DNA of 23,306 bases from a virus, in IMG/VR virus record IMGVR_UViG_3300034101_004574, positions 1 to 23,306 of that record; one strand, written 5' to 3'. Below, one piece after another: positions 10,854 to 22,935 of the stretch. Below the pieces are notes generated by a model, which worked only from the letters and a program-made list of their open reading frames with translations, ran no database searches and was not told where the DNA came from. Each line of letters opens with the position of its first letter. Position 1 is the stretch's first letter. The translations under genes were made by a program, and so were the position numbers.

Positions 10854-10882
10854 TTGACGGTGACTAACACCGCGGGTATTGT
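10854..10882 (+). promoter_or_regulatory. Promoter of the regulator genes with family C operator in the spacer
   Basis: TTGACG (10854-10859), exactly 17 bp, then TATTGT (10877-10882). The 13-mer GGTGACTAACACC (10859-10871) overlaps the -35 edge and fills the spacer, followed by GCGGG next to the -10. ATG 10889 is only 6 nt after the -10, implying a leaderless mRNA. Binding of a regulator here would block RNA polymerase. The neighbouring ribbon-helix-helix genes make autoregulation the simplest idea. Confidence 0.75.
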
Positions 10883-10888
10883 GTAGGT

Positions 10889-11056
10889 ATGCCAAGCCAA
10901 AGGGCCGCCAATAAAAAGTGTATAGCGACATGGGTCGATAAATCCGTGAAGCGGCAGCTTGAGCAGTTAGCAAAAAAGCAAGGAAAGCCATTGAGTCAGC
11001 TTGTCAATGAGCTTTATGAATATCATCTTAATAAGGCTACGTCTAAAAAACCGTAA
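10889..11056 (+). CDS. Ribbon-helix-helix DNA-binding regulator, 55 aa
   Basis: A short protein with an Arc/CopG/MetJ-type fold pattern: basic N-terminal arm, beta-strand KCIATWVD (residues 10-17), helix A KSVKRQLEQLAKKQG (18-32), turn GKP, and helix B LSQLVNELYEYHL (35-47). Such proteins dimerise through the strand and insert it into the major groove of palindromic operators. It starts directly behind the promoter at 10854, with no leader. The gene lies between structural and replication blocks, a usual place for a regulator. It probably binds the GGTGACTAACACC motif in its own promoter, but that is inference. Confidence 0.8.
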   Translation: MPSQRAANKKCIATWVDKSVKRQLEQLAKKQGKPLSQLVNELYEYHLNKATSKKP

Positions 11057-11075
11057 CCTTGAAATCATTTATTCC

Positions 11076-11249
11076 ATGCCCATCAAGCAAGCCCACCAAG
11101 TCAAGAAAACCGCACGGGACAAGAAGGCCCTGATCGCCATCTATGTTTCGAGAGACGTTCACGCCGGACTCAAAAAGCTGGCCGATCAAGACGGCCGCAC
11201 ATTGAGCAACTACCTCAATCGGATTTTGTCTCCGGTGACTAACACCTAA
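11076..11249 (+). CDS. Second ribbon-helix-helix DNA-binding regulator, 57 aa
   Basis: ATG 11076 was chosen because upstream in-frame starts overlap the first regulator and add non-conserved residues. The pattern again is a basic N-terminal arm, beta-strand ALIAIYVSRD (residues 18-27), helix A VHAGLKKLADQDG (28-40) and helix B TLSNYLNRIL (42-51). It ends SPVTNT, encoded by the second copy of GGTGACTAACACC (11234-11246). Sequence identity with the 55-aa regulator is low, so they are not a recent duplication. The two could heterodimerise or form a switch; both ideas are inference. It lies 19 nt after the first gene, in the same transcript. Confidence 0.75.
   Translation: MPIKQAHQVKKTARDKKALIAIYVSRDVHAGLKKLADQDGRTLSNYLNRILSPVTNT
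11234..11246. promoter_or_regulatory. Family C motif GGTGACTAACACC, copy 2
   Basis: Identical to the 13-mer in the 10854 promoter. It forms the last codons of the second ribbon-helix-helix gene and lies 4 nt before ATG 11251. Imperfect symmetry GGTG-n5-CACC. Candidate operator or roadblock site for downstream genes. Confidence 0.6.
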
Positions 11250-12938: not shown

Positions 12939-13944
12939 ACTGGAGCAGTGTCCCTGCTACGAAAGCAATCCGGTGGCCGGACCGGCTGCGCAACGAGGCT
13001 TGGCTTTGGACGCAGCCCTGCGGTTGCTTCTTCAAGACGATGCCCGCGGCATGGAGCCGTTGCCCGATGCCGACCGCGAGGCGGTGCGCTGGGCGGCCGA
13101 AACCATCATGGCTTTGGCCGGCGATTACGCCATCGAAGTCCGCGAGGAGGAGTTGCGCATGCGAACCCCCGGTATCGAACACCGCGGCACAGCAGATGTC
13201 GTGTGCTCTGGCGCCGGATGGGTGGGTGACTTGAAAACCGGTCAGGTCCGCGATTACTACGGCCAGATGGCCGCGTATGCGTGGGCTTTGATGGAACAGC
13301 ATTTCGCCACCGAATGGACAGCATACCTGATCTTTTGCGATCAGAAACAAGTCGTGACACACAAGTTTACCTATGCGGAGGCAAAGGATGCCGTCGAAAG
13401 GATTGTCAACTACGCCCGCGACCCATACCGCGAGCCGCGCGCCTGCGAATACTGCGGGTGGTGCAAGTTGCAGGACCGGTGCCCCGCTGTTGTGCAGCCG
13501 GTGACTAACACCTTCGAGCTTGTCGAGAAGGAAAAAGGATTAAGTGCTCTCCGTGAGCGGTTGTTGTCCGATCCGGCCAAACTTGGACAGTTCCTTGCGG
13601 ACGCTAAACTGTTCGCCAGTGAATTGATCACCCCGCTGCGTGACGAGGCCAAGAAGATGCTGGCCGCCAACCCTGAAGCCATTCCGGGCTGGCAAGTGTC
13701 GCCGGTCAAAGGCCGCGAGCACTTCGACCATATCGCCATCGTGCAAACGGCGGCGGCCTCGAAGTGCGGCATGGACAGCCTTGTGCTGGCCATGGGCGGG
13801 AAGATGGACGGCAAGGACTATCGCGCATGGTGCGCGAGCATGAACCAGCCGGTCGATGAATCTTTTGCCCGCGTGGGCGAAGGAACAACCCAACTGCGGC
13901 AGGCAAAGGCTTCCGCAAAACCAAAAACCCTGAAGGAGAAATAA
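12907..13944 (+). CDS. PD-(D/E)XK exonuclease with Fe-S-type cysteines (DUF2800/Cas4-RecB like)
   Basis: A 345-aa protein. The nuclease core has HRGTADVVC (92-100, Asp97), GWVGDLKTG (104-112, Asp108 and Lys110) and the QxxxY-like GQMAAY (119-124), matching RecB/Cas4-type nucleases. Cys15/Cys17 and C-terminal Cys180, 183, 186 and 192 (CEYCGWCKLQDRC) fit an iron-sulphur cluster as in Cas4/AddB-like enzymes. The C-terminal third is helical and may contact the ATPase or SSB. It probably resects dsDNA ends for annealing. Residues 199-202 (VTNT) are encoded by family C copy 3. It ends TAATG with the SSB-like gene. Confidence 0.85.
   Translation: MSRIRHSALPKLEQCPCYESNPVAGPAAQRGLALDAALRLLLQDDARGMEPLPDADREAVRWAAETIMALAGDYAIEVREEELRMRTPGIEHRGTADVVCSGAGWVGDLKTGQVRDYYGQMAAYAWALMEQHFATEWTAYLIFCDQKQVVTHKFTYAEAKDAVERIVNYARDPYREPRACEYCGWCKLQDRCPAVVQPVTNTFELVEKEKGLSALRERLLSDPAKLGQFLADAKLFASELITPLRDEAKKMLAANPEAIPGWQVSPVKGREHFDHIAIVQTAAASKCGMDSLVLAMGGKMDGKDYRAWCASMNQPVDESFARVGEGTTQLRQAKASAKPKTLKEK
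13500..13512. promoter_or_regulatory. Family C motif GGTGACTAACACC, copy 3 (inside exonuclease gene)
   Basis: Exact 13-mer, with flanks CC and T shared with copy 2. Located inside coding sequence just after the cysteine cluster, in the reading frame V-T-N-T. No promoter hexamers are evident nearby, so an intragenic operator or roadblock, or a non-regulatory DNA site, is possible. Confidence 0.5.
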
Positions 13945-19107: not shown

Positions 19108-19136
19108 TTGACGTTATCCCAACAGTTGGGTATATA
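19108..19136 (+). promoter_or_regulatory. Family A promoter with spacer operator (A1)
   Basis: TTGACG (19108-19113), 17-bp spacer, TATATA (19131-19136). The spacer contains the perfect palindrome CCCAACAGTTGGG (19118-19130) abutting the -10. ATG 19145 is 8 nt after the -10, so the mRNA would be leaderless. A repressor bound there would exclude RNA polymerase. Confidence 0.85.
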
Positions 19137-19144
19137 TTGGTTGT

Positions 19145-19465
19145 ATGAGAAACCCAACCAAAGCAGAAGTCGCGGAAGCGGGCAGCTTCGCGGGCCTTAA
19201 AGCCTACGAATCCGGCCAGTTTGACGCGGATAACGATGCCGCGGCGGAATACGAGCGGGCCGAACAATTCTTCGAGGAGTCCGACCCGAACGACCTCCGC
19301 ATGCGGTTCAACCAGCAAATCAGCCAACTCCAAGAAACCGAGTCAGATGCCTACATCGTGGGGCGCCTGTCAGCAATGATCGGGTTCGCCTTGCAAGCCT
19401 CGCACTACGCACCGCTGACCAAGCACAACATGGAAATCTACTTCGCACTGAAGGAGGCAGCATGA
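19145..19465 (+). CDS. Early hypothetical protein, 106 aa
   Basis: First gene of the unit from promoter A1. Acidic, helical, with Ala/Glu-rich part (DNDAAAEYERAEQFFEESDP) and a hydrophobic helix (IVGRLSAMIGFALQASHY, residues ~70-87) that is amphipathic rather than a clear membrane span. ATG is supported by the promoter spacing. It ends LKEAA in AAGGAGGCAGCATGA (19451-19465). Family not recognised. Confidence 0.65.
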   Translation: MRNPTKAEVAEAGSFAGLKAYESGQFDADNDAAAEYERAEQFFEESDPNDLRMRFNQQISQLQETESDAYIVGRLSAMIGFALQASHYAPLTKHNMEIYFALKEAA

Positions 19466-19662
19466 AGAAAAACAAAACGCAATCGGCAGCCTTTCGCGTG
19501 GCCAGCAAAGCCACCTTCGACAATCCGGTGAGCATCATGCTCCTTGGCAAAGTCAGCAAGTTCGCCGCGGACCGGCTGGCGGAAGGCATGTCAGAGGATG
19601 ACGCAGTGGCCTCGACGGCCGACTACATCCGGCAACTCAACGGCGAAAAGGAGGCGGCATGA
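19462..19662 (+). CDS. Early hypothetical protein, 66 aa
   Basis: Coupled by ATGA to the previous gene. Basic N-terminus (MKKNKTQSAAFRVASKATFD), then helix with hydrophobic face (PVSIMLLGKVSKFAADRLAE) and an acidic helix. Ends EKEAA in AAGGAGGCGGCATGA (19648-19662). No motif recognised. Confidence 0.6.
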   Translation: MKKNKTQSAAFRVASKATFDNPVSIMLLGKVSKFAADRLAEGMSEDDAVASTADYIRQLNGEKEAA

Positions 19663-19925
19663 GTGATTGGACATCATACCGCGACCGGATGCGCGATGCC
19701 TATGCCCCTGCGGCACCCGCCCCAAAACAAGATGACCCTCCGTGGCAACTCGACATCGAGCGCATGAAGGCAAGGGCCGCAAAAGACAACAAGACCCTAC
19801 GCGACGAGTTGGAGGACAGCTACGCTGACTACCGCCAGAGCGTGAACAATGGATATTGCGAAAACGACCAGAGTGTTTGCGATCAATACAAAGCTGCCAT
19901 CAGAGCCGCAAAGGAGGCAGAATGA
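19659..19925 (+). CDS. Early hypothetical protein, 88 aa
   Basis: Soluble, charged, with helices WTSYRDRMRDAYA and IERMKARAAKDNKTLRDELE. Two Cys near the C terminus (GYCENDQSVCDQY). Starts by ATGA coupling and ends AKEAE in AAGGAGGCAGAATGA (19911-19925). No family recognised. Confidence 0.6.
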   Translation: MSDWTSYRDRMRDAYAPAAPAPKQDDPPWQLDIERMKARAAKDNKTLRDELEDSYADYRQSVNNGYCENDQSVCDQYKAAIRAAKEAE

Positions 19926-20086
19926 ATGATCAGCCGGACCACAACCACACGGCGGAAACCATCATCCCCTGCGATTGCGGCAGCGATCAAGCCAACTGGC
20001 GCGGTGACAAACACGGACAGAGAATGTATCTCTGTCCTGATTGCGCCGCTCACTACCCTGAACTACTGGCCGCGGAGAACCACTAA
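19922..20086 (+). CDS. Small zinc-finger-like protein, 54 aa
   Basis: ATG 19922 within the coupling sequence. His-rich start (NDQPDHNHTAE) followed by IPCDCGSDQANWRG and MYLCPDCAAH: paired CxC and CxxC knuckles ~18 residues apart, fitting a zinc ribbon. Likely nucleic-acid or protein binding. Function unknown. Confidence 0.6.
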   Translation: MNDQPDHNHTAETIIPCDCGSDQANWRGDKHGQRMYLCPDCAAHYPELLAAENH

Positions 20087-20090
20087 AACC

Positions 20091-20246
20091 ATGAAACTGA
20101 CCTGTCACCAATGCGGGGCCACCATACCCCGCAATCGCGTTATGAAGGCTGCCATGTCCGCAGCCGGTTCCAAGACCAACCAAGCAAAAGCTGAAGCGGC
20201 TCGACGCAACGGCAAACTTGGGGGTCGCCCCAAAAAAGCGGTGTAA
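20091..20246 (+). CDS. Small zinc-knuckle / basic-tail protein, 51 aa
   Basis: ATG 20091 is 4 nt after the previous stop. One CxxC knuckle (LTCHQCGA, residues 3-10) and a basic C-terminal helix ending GKLGGRPKKAV, an AT-hook-like GGRPKK. The KAEAARRNGKLGGRPKK type of ending is common in small phage and plasmid DNA-binding proteins. Probably a small DNA-binding accessory protein. Confidence 0.55.
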   Translation: MKLTCHQCGATIPRNRVMKAAMSAAGSKTNQAKAEAARRNGKLGGRPKKAV

Positions 20247-20255
20247 AACAAAGTA

Positions 20256-20270
20256 GTCAAAATGTTTGAC
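20256..20270. promoter_or_regulatory. Family B palindrome (site B5)
   Basis: GTCAAA-ATG-TTTGAC, perfect 6-bp arms. TTGACA (20266-20271) ends 30 nt before ATG 20302. No -10-like hexamer at 17 bp (CACGTT). Same layout as B1, B2 and B4. Confidence 0.65.
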
Positions 20271-20301
20271 ACCTGACCGGTTCGGTCGCACGTTCCCCGA
20301 C

Positions 20302-20598
20302 ATGAAGGGGAAAAAGAAAGCGGCCGGCCGGTCGGCCTATTGGCGCAAATACTACGCGGAAAACCTCGAGCGGGAGCGCGCCCGCAAACGCCAATGGTAT
20401 CTCGACAACCGGGATGACACCATCGAGCGCGTAAAAGCCAGCCAGCGCAAAGCCGACCCCATCGGGCCGGTTTATCGGGTTGGCATCAAACGCCGGTATC
20501 TCATTGCCGGCGGCCGCGTTTATTTCAATTCCCGCTTGGGCTTCTCCGCATCAGAGCTTCGCCTGATCGCCCGCGAAATGGGGGCCGCTGCGAAATGA
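20302..20598 (+). CDS. Basic hypothetical protein next to attP, 98 aa
   Basis: ATG 20302 was chosen by its distance from B5. Very rich in Arg/Lys/Tyr: GRSAYWRKYYAENLERERAR and KRQWYLDNRDDTIERVKASQ resemble the N-terminal helix of some HNH-associated phage proteins, but no HNH or other catalytic motif follows. The C-terminal part (RYLIAGGRVYFNSRLGFSAS) is beta-like, and the final helix carries ELRLIAREMG. Position directly before attP would suit an excisionase or recombination directionality factor (small and basic); this is inference from location and charge only. Confidence 0.55.
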   Translation: MKGKKKAAGRSAYWRKYYAENLERERARKRQWYLDNRDDTIERVKASQRKADPIGPVYRVGIKRRYLIAGGRVYFNSRLGFSASELRLIAREMGAAAK

Positions 20599-20600
20599 CC

Positions 20601-20750
20601 TTTTTCTCACTCGACAGTTTTTTTTCTCACTCAAAAGAAAGGCGAGGGACGGAATCGAACCGTCGCATAGGGCTTTTGCAGAGCCCTGCCTTACCCGTCT
20701 CTGTCGGACATGAAAAATCCTACACTGTCATTTCTCACCTTTTCTCACCT
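20601..20750. other. Putative phage attachment site (attP) with flanking arm-type repeats
   Basis: The 157-bp gene-free interval before the integrase. The centre is the 3' part of a tRNA-Cys. To its left, the 12-mer TTTTTCTCACTC occurs at 20601-20612 and 20621-20632. To its right, TTTCTCACCT is tandemly repeated at 20731-20740 and 20741-20750. All share TTTCTCAC. Four like-oriented short repeats around a tRNA-derived core match the arm-type/core layout of tyrosine-integrase attP sites. The integrase gene begins 5 nt after the last repeat, so integrase binding could also repress its own gene. Confidence 0.8.
20641..20697 (-). pseudogene. 3' fragment of tRNA-Cys (attP core identity)
   Basis: On the minus strand the sequence reads, from the D-loop onward, GGGTAAGGC, then an anticodon arm with loop CTGCAAA (anticodon GCA, Cys) on a GGGCT/AGCCC stem, the T-arm GACGGTTCGATTCCGTC, and the acceptor 3' half CCTCGCC. 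The matching 5' acceptor half (GGCGAGG) and D-stem 5' half are missing; what precedes is unrelated. This is not a functional tRNA but the piece that restores the host gene upon integration. Confidence 0.85.
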
Positions 20751-20755
20751 GCCTA

Positions 20756-21772
20756 ATGGCCTCGCTTCATCGTCGCCACAATTCGGGCTATTGGCATGTG
20801 AGCTACCTCGAAGCCGGCCAGTGGAAAAAGAAATCCACCGGCTTCCGGTGTGACGATCCCGACGAGACGCGCAAGGCCCAAGCCTTGGCCGCCAAGCTGA
20901 CTTGCCGCGAGAAGCTGGCACCGGCCGCCGCGGCAGCGCCGGGATGGGATTGGGTGCCGGTCTTTATCAAGGCAGTCGCCCGCGCGCCTCGAACCCTCGA
21001 AGCCTACAAGCTGCGCTGGCGGCGAGTCCTGCAATTCCTAATCGAGCACAACCTGAAGCACCCGCAATCCGTCCGATACGAACATGCGGAAGCCTACCTG
21101 CGCTGGCGCGAGGCCCAAAAACGCCACGCCGGTAAGCCGATCTGCCACAACACAGCGGTTATGGAGGCCAAATTCATGAAAACCGTGCTGGCCGAGGCCG
21201 CGTTGCGCGAAATGGTAGATCGCAGCCCATGGGCCGCCTTCCGGCCCCGCAAGGACGATACCGACGAGAAACCGGAAATCACCGTCACCGAGGCTGCCCA
21301 AATCGAGCGCGCCCTGGATGCGGCACCGCCCTGGATGCGCCGGTCATGGCAGATTGCAATGGCCACCGGCTGCCGGTTGCGCGAGACGCGCATCGAGATC
21401 CGCCGGCAAGTCAACTTCGAGGAAGGCACCATCTTGTTCCCCTCGCCCAAAGGCGGCCGCCGGAAGGCTTACGCAATCCCGCTCCCCAAATCCCTCCGGC
21501 CGGCTTTCGAGGCGTGGCTGGCCGCCGGGGACCGGTGGACCCTGACCATGCCGCCCTGCCCCTCGAAGGATTGGCGGTTCTTCCTCGATGACTTGGGCAT
21601 GCCTCACCTGTGCTTCCACTGCACCCGCGTCACCTTCATCACCAAGCTGGCGCGCGCCAACGTGCCGCTGGCCGTGGCTATGCGGCTGGTGAACCACGCG
21701 AGTAAGACGATCCATCGCATCTACCAGAGGATAAACTTGGACGATCTGCGCCAATGGGCGGACAAGGTATGA
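20756..21772 (+). CDS. int: Tyrosine-type integrase, 338 aa
   Basis: Site-specific recombinase that would integrate the phage at host tRNA-Cys. An N-terminal arm-binding region (1-60) with HRRHNSGYWHVSYLEAGQWK is followed by a SAM-like core-binding domain (65-160). The catalytic domain (175-338) has Arg207 (ATGCRLRETR), Lys232 (SPKGGRRK), His288-x-x-Arg291 (FHCTR), His314 (LVNHASKT) and the nucleophile Tyr323 (HRIYQR). All five conserved positions are filled, so it should be active. No SD precedes ATG 20756, and the repeats end 5 nt before it. A strong hairpin follows the gene. Confidence 0.93.
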   Translation: MASLHRRHNSGYWHVSYLEAGQWKKKSTGFRCDDPDETRKAQALAAKLTCREKLAPAAAAAPGWDWVPVFIKAVARAPRTLEAYKLRWRRVLQFLIEHNLKHPQSVRYEHAEAYLRWREAQKRHAGKPICHNTAVMEAKFMKTVLAEAALREMVDRSPWAAFRPRKDDTDEKPEITVTEAAQIERALDAAPPWMRRSWQIAMATGCRLRETRIEIRRQVNFEEGTILFPSPKGGRRKAYAIPLPKSLRPAFEAWLAAGDRWTLTMPPCPSKDWRFFLDDLGMPHLCFHCTRVTFITKLARANVPLAVAMRLVNHASKTIHRIYQRINLDDLRQWADKV

Positions 21773-21780
21773 GCCATGAA

Positions 21781-21806
21781 AGGGGGGAGGCAATTCGCCC
21801 CCCCCT
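21781..21806 (+). terminator. GC-rich hairpin after integrase
   Basis: GGGGGG-A-GG (21782-21790) pairs with eight C (21798-21805) around the loop CAATTCG, leaving one bulged A; A21781/T21806 extends it. Very stable stem but no T-run afterwards. It probably terminates or insulates integrase transcription from promoter A2 about 45 bp downstream. Confidence 0.6.
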
Positions 21807-21849
21807 ATCAAAAAGTGATGAGTTTTCGTGACATGCTTCAAAATACCGG

Positions 21850-21878
21850 TTGACCGAAACCCATCTGTTGGGTATGTA
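21850..21878 (+). promoter_or_regulatory. Family A promoter with spacer operator (A2)
   Basis: TTGACC (21850-21855), 17 bp, TATGTA (21873-21878). The spacer holds CCCATCTGTTGGG (21860-21872), the A1 palindrome with one arm mismatch. TATTGGTTG follows the -10 as in A1. ATG 21886 is 7 nt after the -10, implying a leaderless mRNA. Confidence 0.8.
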
Positions 21879-21885
21879 TTGGTTG

Positions 21886-22167
21886 ATGAAAGCAAAACCC
21901 CTGACAGTCAAACTGGCCCACCGGCCAAACCCCGACCTGTTCGACCGCGGCGGATACTGGGACGAACCGGCCGAAAGCGGCAAAACCCAAGCCGTGCCGG
22001 TCAACACCTACGCCGAAGCGTCGAAAGTCTGCCAAGACTACATCCGGCGCAACTCCCTCGGCGCCGGTAACTGGACCGGCGGCAACATCTACCAAGGACG
22101 CACCAAGGTCGGCCATGTGAGCTACAACGGCCGCGTCTGGGACATCGAGGGCAAGGAGATCAAATGA
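21886..22167 (+). CDS. Early hypothetical protein, 93 aa
   Basis: ATG 21886 is fixed by promoter A2; longer frames would read through the promoter. Soluble protein with an extended Pro-rich N-terminal third (LAHRPNPDLFDRGGYWDEPA), a helix (TYAEASKVCQDYIRRN) and a beta-rich Gly/Asn/Tyr end (NWTGGNIYQGRTKVGHVSYN). No catalytic motif recognised. First gene of the unit right of attP; operator control suggests expression opposite to lysogeny or as an early gene. Confidence 0.65.
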   Translation: MKAKPLTVKLAHRPNPDLFDRGGYWDEPAESGKTQAVPVNTYAEASKVCQDYIRRNSLGAGNWTGGNIYQGRTKVGHVSYNGRVWDIEGKEIK

Positions 22168-22379
22168 CCGACCAAATGCGCGCCAAGTTCGACGATCTGG
22201 CCGACTACATCGTGACCAGCATCAAATACAACATGCCGGTCACGAAACAAGATATGCGCTTCCTCGAAGCCTACAACGCCATGAGAAAGGCGCAGGATGC
22301 AATCGCGGCCGGTAAGCCGGTGCCGCGCTGCGGCCGCGCCGGCAAACGCAAAATCGTCCCAACTGGACGCGGCAAATGA
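22164..22379 (+). CDS. Small basic hypothetical protein, 71 aa
   Basis: Coupled to the previous gene by ATGA. Helical N-terminal half (MRAKFDDLADYIVTSIKYNM, then QDMRFLEAYNAMRKAQDAI) and a basic C-terminal tail (CGRAGKRKIVPTGRGK) suited to nucleic-acid contact. Family not recognised. Confidence 0.6.
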   Translation: MTDQMRAKFDDLADYIVTSIKYNMPVTKQDMRFLEAYNAMRKAQDAIAAGKPVPRCGRAGKRKIVPTGRGK

Positions 22380-22708
22380 GCGGCATCTTTGGATGGAGTT
22401 ACCCGCCGGGTTGCAGCGGTCCGCCCAACGAGGACTACCGGTGCGAAGTATGCCTCAAGGACTGCGACGATTGCATCTGCCCCGAATGTCCAGAGTGCGG
22501 AGTCCATGGCGACCCCGATTGCTACGAACCTACCGCCACCGGCCACGCCTTGGTGCGCTCGCCCGAACAAATCGCCTCCCACAAGGAGGTGATGGACTAC
22601 ATCGAGGCCCAAGCCGAAGCAGAGCACGAATACTGGAGCAAACGCGCCGAGGAAGATAAGAAACTGGTTGACGAAAACCCAACTGCTGGGTATTATAGAA
22701 GCGTATGA
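22376..22708 (+). CDS. Cysteine-rich hypothetical protein, 110 aa
   Basis: Residues 13-49 hold ten cysteines: one at SGIFGWSYPPGC, then CEVCLKDCDDCICPECPECG and the C of GDPDCYE. Repeated CxxC/CxC spacing fits binding of two zinc ions or a metal cluster. The C-terminal half is a charged helix (SHKEVMDYIEAQAEAEHEYW). Starts by ATGA overlap. Its last 40 nt contain promoter A3, so the C-terminus DENPTAGYYRSV is partly dictated by regulatory DNA. May bind host proteins or nucleic acid; no family recognised. Confidence 0.65.
   Translation: MSGIFGWSYPPGCSGPPNEDYRCEVCLKDCDDCICPECPECGVHGDPDCYEPTATGHALVRSPEQIASHKEVMDYIEAQAEAEHEYWSKRAEEDKKLVDENPTAGYYRSV
22668..22696 (+). promoter_or_regulatory. Family A promoter inside coding sequence (A3)
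   Basis: TTGACG (22668-22673), 17 bp, TATTAT (22691-22696). The spacer contains CCCAACTGCTGGG (22678-22690), one mismatch from the palindrome. ATG 22705 is 8 nt after the -10. The whole promoter lies in the 3' end of the Cys-rich gene. The start context GTATGAGAAACC is shared with the A1-driven gene. Confidence 0.8.
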
Positions 22709-22935
22709 GAAACCAAAGAAACCTGAAAACCCTCGCGGACATCAAGGACGCGGTGCGCGCCGGCTCGGAGGTGCGCTGGAGCAACGACAACTACAAGGTT
22801 GTCGCAAACAAACGAGGCGACGAGTTCTTCATCGTCTCGCAGTTCAACGGATACACCATCGGCCTCACCCACACGGATGGGGTCACGATGAACGGCAAGA
22901 TCGAGGACTTCTACACCAAGGAGGCCGCAGCCTAA
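22705..22935 (+). CDS. Early hypothetical protein, 76 aa
   Basis: First gene after promoter A3, ATG overlapping the upstream stop (ATGA), so it can be made both by coupling and from its own leaderless mRNA. The fold looks like a small beta-rich domain: helix TLADIKDAVRAG, strands SEVRWSNDNYKVVANKRGDE and FFIVSQFNGYTIGLTH, then DGVTMNGKIEDFYTKEA. No known motif. Ends KEAAA ahead of the next ATG. Confidence 0.65.
   Translation: MRNQRNLKTLADIKDAVRAGSEVRWSNDNYKVVANKRGDEFFIVSQFNGYTIGLTHTDGVTMNGKIEDFYTKEAAA

Follow-up and report, generated by a model that had tools for sequence, protein, structure and literature searches.

Three promoter sites with a dyad in the spacer

The virus record IMGVR_UViG_3300034101_004574 (23.3 kb; this whole stretch is called the window) carries three promoter-like sites around its integrase gene, each with a short palindromic element between the -35 and the -10 hexamers. 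The question that this locus raises is whether the palindrome is an operator through which a repressor switches the adjoining small-gene operons together, or an incidental part of a promoter that was copied. The original prediction described a three-member family (family A) with a palindromic operator locked into a 17-bp spacer, and its coordinates and letters were found to be correct. The sites are as follows.

19108..19136, + strand: family-A promoter 1 (TTGACG at 19108-19113, 17-bp spacer, TATATA at 19131-19136)
19118-19130: dyad 1, CCCAACAGTTGGG, a perfect palindrome
21850..21878, + strand: family-A promoter 2 (TTGACC at 21850-21855, 17-bp spacer, TATGTA at 21873-21878)
21860-21872: dyad 2, CCCATCTGTTGGG, with one departure from symmetry
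22668..22696, + strand: family-A promoter 3 (TTGACG at 22668-22673, 17-bp spacer, TATTAT at 22691-22696)
22678-22690: dyad 3, CCCAACTGCTGGG, with one departure from symmetry

At all three sites TTGAC[G/C] is followed by four bases, then by the 13-bp dyad CCCAACWGTTGGG and directly by TAT, so that the spacer is exactly 17 bp long and the dyad abuts the -10. Hexamers of the sigma-70 type at a spacing of 16–18 bp are thus present in each case. Similarity among the sites spans from CCGG (ACCGG) upstream of the -35 to ATGAGAAAC at the gene start. Promoter 3 sits within the 3' end of an open reading frame (ORF; 22376-22708).

The combination is far above chance. With base composition allowed for, the 13-mer would be expected 0.068 times in the window if one mismatch is permitted; when TTGAC is also required 5 nt upstream the expectation falls to 5e-5, against three observed. 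Allowing up to two mismatches gave four matches in the window, a number reached by none of 100 shuffles.

Conservation of the dyads in a related phage

The same three family-A sites occur at the same places in a related phage genome of 51.9 kb, IMGVR_UViG_3300042321_002434 (hereafter G001). Between the two phages 38 of the 39 dyad positions are unchanged, which counts for an operator because spacer letters are normally free. The dyad lies between the -35 and the -10 and is kept beyond what a promoter needs.

The surroundings of the sites behave differently from the sites themselves. Around promoter 2, a block of ∼38 bp (from ATACCGG to beyond the -10) is nearly unchanged in G001, while both flanks are non-homologous and could not be aligned. 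The gene that follows is swapped as well, being 93 aa in the window and an unrelated 63 aa in G001. This is one clear case of a promoter module that was kept while the adjacent gene was exchanged, and by its sequence the block is a phylogenetic footprint of the promoter cassette. Promoter 3 is also kept in G001 while its upstream flank is replaced, and the ORF corresponding to 22376-22708 does not adjoin the promoter there. Promoter 1 gives the opposite picture: its surroundings are kept and the promoter is altered. The TTAT that precedes the dyad is GGAA in G001, the left arm has one changed base, and one base is missing ahead of the ATG. What is under selection thus looks like the promoter together with its dyad, and not the gene behind it.

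Several observations weigh against reading the dyad as an operator. The three sites are related copies and hence not three independent events, and since they share up to ∼50 bp including the first codons, common descent accounts for part of their identity. A perfect dyad is present at only one of the six sites (three in the window and three in G001), and the G001 copy of site 1 breaks the left arm by one base (CCAAAC). A single site with one departure would be unremarkable alone, as ∼15% of random 17-mers score equally. A strict sigma-70 consensus scan accepted site 3 only, and promoter-like matches across the region were not above shuffles (2 versus 2.7). G001 is, moreover, the only relative in the comparison that has family-A sites. 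The case therefore stands on conservation and repetition and not on consensus strength.

These points bring in a different explanation, namely that a strong leaderless promoter was recently duplicated as a cassette of ∼50 bp running through the first codons, with a dyad that is incidental or of which only GGGTAT matters to RNA polymerase. The similarity indeed extends past the dyad, into ACCGG on one side and into the first codons on the other (five of the six copies start with ATGAGAAAC). The GGG of the right arm is invariant while the left arm varies, and a fourth promoter in the window, described below, also has GGGTAT. Regulatory cassettes are known to spread in phage genomes, to judge by the title of Arbiol et al. 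2010 (cited in PMC4177764). A duplicated cassette without an operator does not account well for the conservation of both arms between the phages, including at promoter 2, which has lost its flanks. The four spacer letters that precede the dyad differ among the sites, and the GGG before the -10 is lost in the fourth promoter of G001 (TTTGTATGTG). We consider this explanation the main contender, though an unlikely one.

Family A is, in summary of the above comparison, a real and conserved feature, of a known kind of arrangement with a new sequence. The reading of its dyad as a phage repressor operator that co-regulates three accessory operons around attP-int is the most likely one, and we hold it with moderate confidence on the basis of these sequence patterns.

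Predicted leaderless geometry of the first genes

The distance from the -10 to the ATG is 7–8 nt at all three sites. Transcription is predicted to start within ∼3 nt of the start codon, given the usual sigma-70 start distances. The first genes lack a Shine-Dalgarno sequence, whereas GGAGG precedes most of the later genes in unit 1 (the operon behind promoter 1). Both the -10 placed near the start codon and the missing Shine-Dalgarno sequence, seen at all three sites, are the marks of leaderless promoters, and the first genes behind family A are predicted to be leaderless. If this is true, the geometry indicates where to look for transcript starts.

The same spacing recurs beyond family A. TTGAC occurs 34–39 nt before a first ATG six times in the window (0.39 expected) and ten times in G001 (0.72 expected), two sets that have many homologous members and are hence not independent. 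They include family A and a third class of dyad, GTC[AG]AAAnn[AT]TTGAC; the promoter of the rhh genes described below fits too (34–35 nt). No enrichment was found in the host loci examined (1 versus 1.08 expected), so that this geometry is not shown to be a habit of the host. A literature search on leaderless genes of Verrucomicrobia found nothing.

This geometry bears on the possibility that the dyad is the site of a MerR-like activator acting on the spacer, or a hairpin in the transcript. Dyads in the spacer are typical of MerR-type activators, and dyad 1 was among the weak terminator-like matches of a scan. MerR-type promoters have stretched spacing, whereas 17 bp is the optimal spacer length and is what we found here. 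The predicted start lies downstream of the dyad, which would leave the dyad outside the RNA made from its own promoter. Either form of this proposal appears very improbable to us.

Extent of the proposed regulon and the probable host

The original prediction had hoped for a wider regulon, detectable by scanning for further copies. Such scans recovered the three sites in G001 and no plausible additional ones anywhere searched. A fourth copy was not found in the 51.9 kb of G001, which has 69-bp tandem repeats at both ends and is thus probably nearly complete. No plausible copy beyond these phages was found in IMG/VR. Two cassette matches in IMG/VR (L004 and L006, one and the same stretch) were rejected as chance, having no start codon at the right distance and a GC content of 40–44%; a looser cassette pattern gave a chance match only, in two copies of one AT-rich sequence.

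Relatives of the individual genes led to the same result. Those of the first gene behind promoter 1 were found in G001 only. The promoter is absent from 12 other contigs with PHROG_35422 relatives of the third gene, and the cassette was likewise not found with Sak4 relatives at 52–62% identity or at integrase-bearing loci from genomes of Verrucomicrobia, Akkermansia and Armatimonadetes. On present data the regulon would comprise these three promoters at most.

The nearest cellular relatives of the integrase (34–44% identity) come nearly all from Verrucomicrobia genomes, several of them labelled Akkermansia, plus one metagenome-assembled genome of Armatimonadetes. The host is therefore probably a verrucomicrobium, as judged from the integrase. 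Among 388 genomes of this phylum the cassette gave 36 matches, all with two mismatches and none cassette-like, which is near chance (a reversed-pattern control was lower and of the same order). The 13-mer plus TA, CCCAACWGTTGGGTA, gave 0 matches in these genomes, while the reversed controls gave a few.

These counts concern the proposal that the dyad is a site for a borrowed host regulator, either a repressor or an activator. Phages do borrow host regulators, and for a phage-encoded regulator we have candidates only. The absence of the cassette from the genomes of the phylum makes a host-wide regulator unlikely; the comparison is at the level of the phylum, and a regulator specific to a genus is possible. 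Taken together, we regard a borrowed host regulator as quite unlikely.

Candidate regulators and a second dyad family

The earlier statement that no classical repressor gene is present in the window was wrong, as two candidate ORFs of the ribbon-helix-helix (RHH; Arc/CopG-like) type lie in tandem at 10889-11249. A report of no repressor in the window can simply mean that small RHH genes were overlooked. The locus is composed as follows.

10854..10882, + strand: fourth promoter, predicted to be leaderless (TTGACG, 17-bp spacer, TATTGT; ATG at 10889, 6 nt on)
10889..11056, + strand: R1, RHH-like candidate of 55 aa (Pfam RHH_5, E 0.0011; Antitox_RHH, E 0.0018; below cut-off; PHROG Arc-like repressors)
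11076..11249, + strand: R2, RHH-like candidate of 57 aa (Pfam RHH_5, E 0.00022; below cut-off; PHROG Arc-like repressors)

A model of R2, made from two sequences, has two helices after an extended N-terminal stretch, and RHH proteins (Arc, CopG, NikA, VapB and others) make up nearly all of its best fold matches in the PDB (probability up to 0.99, E >0.1).

The spacer of the fourth promoter begins with a different dyad, GGTGACTAACACC (family B, at 10859-10871), and the promoter is not a member of family A. The R2 ORF ends in a second copy (11234-11246). Exact copies of this dyad number four, all on the + strand: at 10859 in the rhh promoter, at 11234 at the end of R2, and at 13500 and 14399 inside the exonuclease and SSB genes, one each, where they encode VTNT. 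It and its one-base shifts were the only 13-mers found at least three times in the window. In G001, both copies flanking the rhh pair read GGTGTGTAACACC, the second one inverted, while the copies in the exonuclease and SSB genes keep the window sequence. A second fragment, L069, shows the G001 form. Other matches to the fourth-promoter pattern in IMG/VR were rejected as chance, being without an RHH gene.

The rhh genes of the two phages are 36–45% identical. A dyad that changed in both copies flanking differing rhh genes is the pattern expected of an autoregulated repressor pair; it looks as if repressor and operator had been swapped as one, in the manner of phage immunity cassettes. The family-A dyad is unchanged between the phages, and its regulator should consequently be something conserved. 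In an ungapped alignment of R1, the two phages share the residues C11, A13 and W15 of the predicted strand, while the strand residues of R2 differ. Because the family-A dyad and these residues are kept together, and the second dyad and the R2 strand differ together, R1 may be the binder of family A and R2 that of family B, as inferred from one comparison. Family A may instead be bound by some other small conserved protein from these operons, for example the 51-aa zinc-ribbon/basic product of the ORF at 20091, which is 100% identical between the window phage and G001.

Such assignments have to be set against three observations. The RHH family matches of R1 and R2 are weak though repeated (E 2e-4 to 4e-2) and all below the Pfam cut-offs; the model of R1 is poorer and has no strand; and the rhh promoter carries a different dyad, which leaves any action of the RHH proteins on family A conjectural.

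Comparison with known systems

The nearest precedent is CopG (RepA) of pMV158/pLS1, whose binding region at Pcr includes a symmetric element of 13 bp (del Solar et al. 1990, as cited in PMC5717011). CopG is a small RHH repressor that autoregulates its operon through this element, and the R2 model resembles it. CopG serves plasmid copy control from one operator, whereas the present phage has three putative operators of another sequence at promoters predicted to be leaderless.

Arc of phage P22 is likewise a phage RHH repressor. PHROG families named 'Arc-like repressor' match both R1 and R2, and Arc structures are among the best folds for R2, but the sequence identity to R1 and R2 is very low, and Arc is not known to use a set of three scattered cassettes with a 13-bp dyad.

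In L5-like mycobacteriophages a 13-bp repressor site, the stoperator, recurs throughout the genome and is found in promoters too (PMC9283540). Family B, with four copies in one orientation and two of them inside genes, resembles this layout. L5 sites differ in being asymmetric, in numbering in the twenties and in being bound by a monomeric helix-turn-helix repressor. Family A is not of the stoperator type, as it consists of three near-symmetric sites, all in promoters, and none was found elsewhere in G001.

For the leaderless geometry, Deinococcus-Thermus offers a parallel, where leaderless mRNA arises from a -10 directly before an ORF and is enhanced by a suitably spaced -35 (PMC12340547). 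The genes described there are host genes from a different phylum, and no operator is built into their promoters. Mobile regulatory cassettes are described for T4-type phages, as stated in the title of Arbiol et al. 2010, and the likeness, as far as a title conveys it, lies in regulatory modules that recur before exchangeable genes. The present phage bears an integrase and is of a different kind from the lytic T4-type phages; it has a dyad in the spacer and predicted leaderless starts. The T4-type cassettes are reportedly early promoters with stem-loops.

Gene units around the integrase

In agreement with the original prediction, the family-A promoters stand before units of small genes to either side of the integrase, and in the same three places in the relative. 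The genes concerned are given below.

19145..19465, + strand: first gene behind promoter 1, 106 aa, function not known, ATG 8 nt past the -10, 96% identical in G001
19462..20246, + strand: remainder of unit 1, small ORFs at 19462-19662, 19659-19925, 19922-20089 (these three with GGAGG-type ribosome sites) and 20091-20246
20640..20740, - strand: tRNA-like sequence and probable attP core, with a weak match to the Rfam tRNA clan (E 0.013, below gathering)
20756..21772, + strand: tyrosine integrase, with its closest cellular relatives nearly all from Verrucomicrobia
21886..22167, + strand: first gene behind promoter 2, 93 aa, ATG 7 nt past the -10
22705..22935, + strand: first gene behind promoter 3, 76 aa, PHROG 35422, function not known, ATG 8 nt past the -10

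The tRNA-like sequence adjoins the integrase and has a GCA anticodon-like loop. The protein of 22705-22935 is common to many unrelated phages, including Xanthomonas phage XacN1. In G001, the 69-bp repeats (1-200 and 51633-51896) suggest that the assembly broke within one repeat array, the genome being circular or terminally redundant, and a single ORF of 5881 aa (31984-49629) takes up about a third of the genome.

Proposed mechanism and its meaning

What was observed directly are the sequences with their geometry and synteny, the exchange of the gene that follows promoter 2, and the two RHH-like ORFs. From these we propose that the three sites would be copies of one phage promoter cassette with sigma-70-type -35 and -10 elements and a 17-bp spacer. 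Transcription would start 0–3 nt before the ATG, so that the first gene would be leaderless. A 13-bp pseudo-palindromic operator would fill the part of the spacer next to the -10, and a dimeric repressor encoded by the phage and conserved in the window phage and G001 would bind there and block RNA polymerase. The three accessory small-gene operons around attP-int would in this way be switched together.

The third class of dyad (C), GTC[AG]AAAnn[AT]TTGAC, was observed on the coding strand at 676, 1593, 4247, 16531, 17311 and 20256 of the window, and at 12 exact sites in G001. Its longest form, TTGTCAAAATAATTGACAA, has two perfect copies (4245 and 17309). Its TTGAC often lies 34–39 nt before an ATG, without a clear -10, and it may be an operator that overlaps the -35, or else a promoter specific to the phage. 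A search with the family-C pattern gave single matches in unrelated contigs.

A wider and decidedly speculative reading is that these phages use one promoter grammar (TTGAC ∼37 nt before the ATG and a leaderless first gene) with exchangeable operators, of which dyad A sits by the -10, dyad B (GGTGnnTAACACC) serves the rhh operon from a place by the -35, and dyad C (GTCRAAAnnWTTGAC), present ahead of many other genes, overlaps their -35. The operator plugged in would alone set the expression class, the tandem RHH pair would belong to the decoder, and phages would swap operator and repressor alleles jointly.

To our knowledge, regulation in phages of Verrucomicrobia has been little studied. If the proposed mechanism is true, the 13-mer, the three promoters and the two small RHH genes would form a compact set of parts for testing the control of accessory genes.

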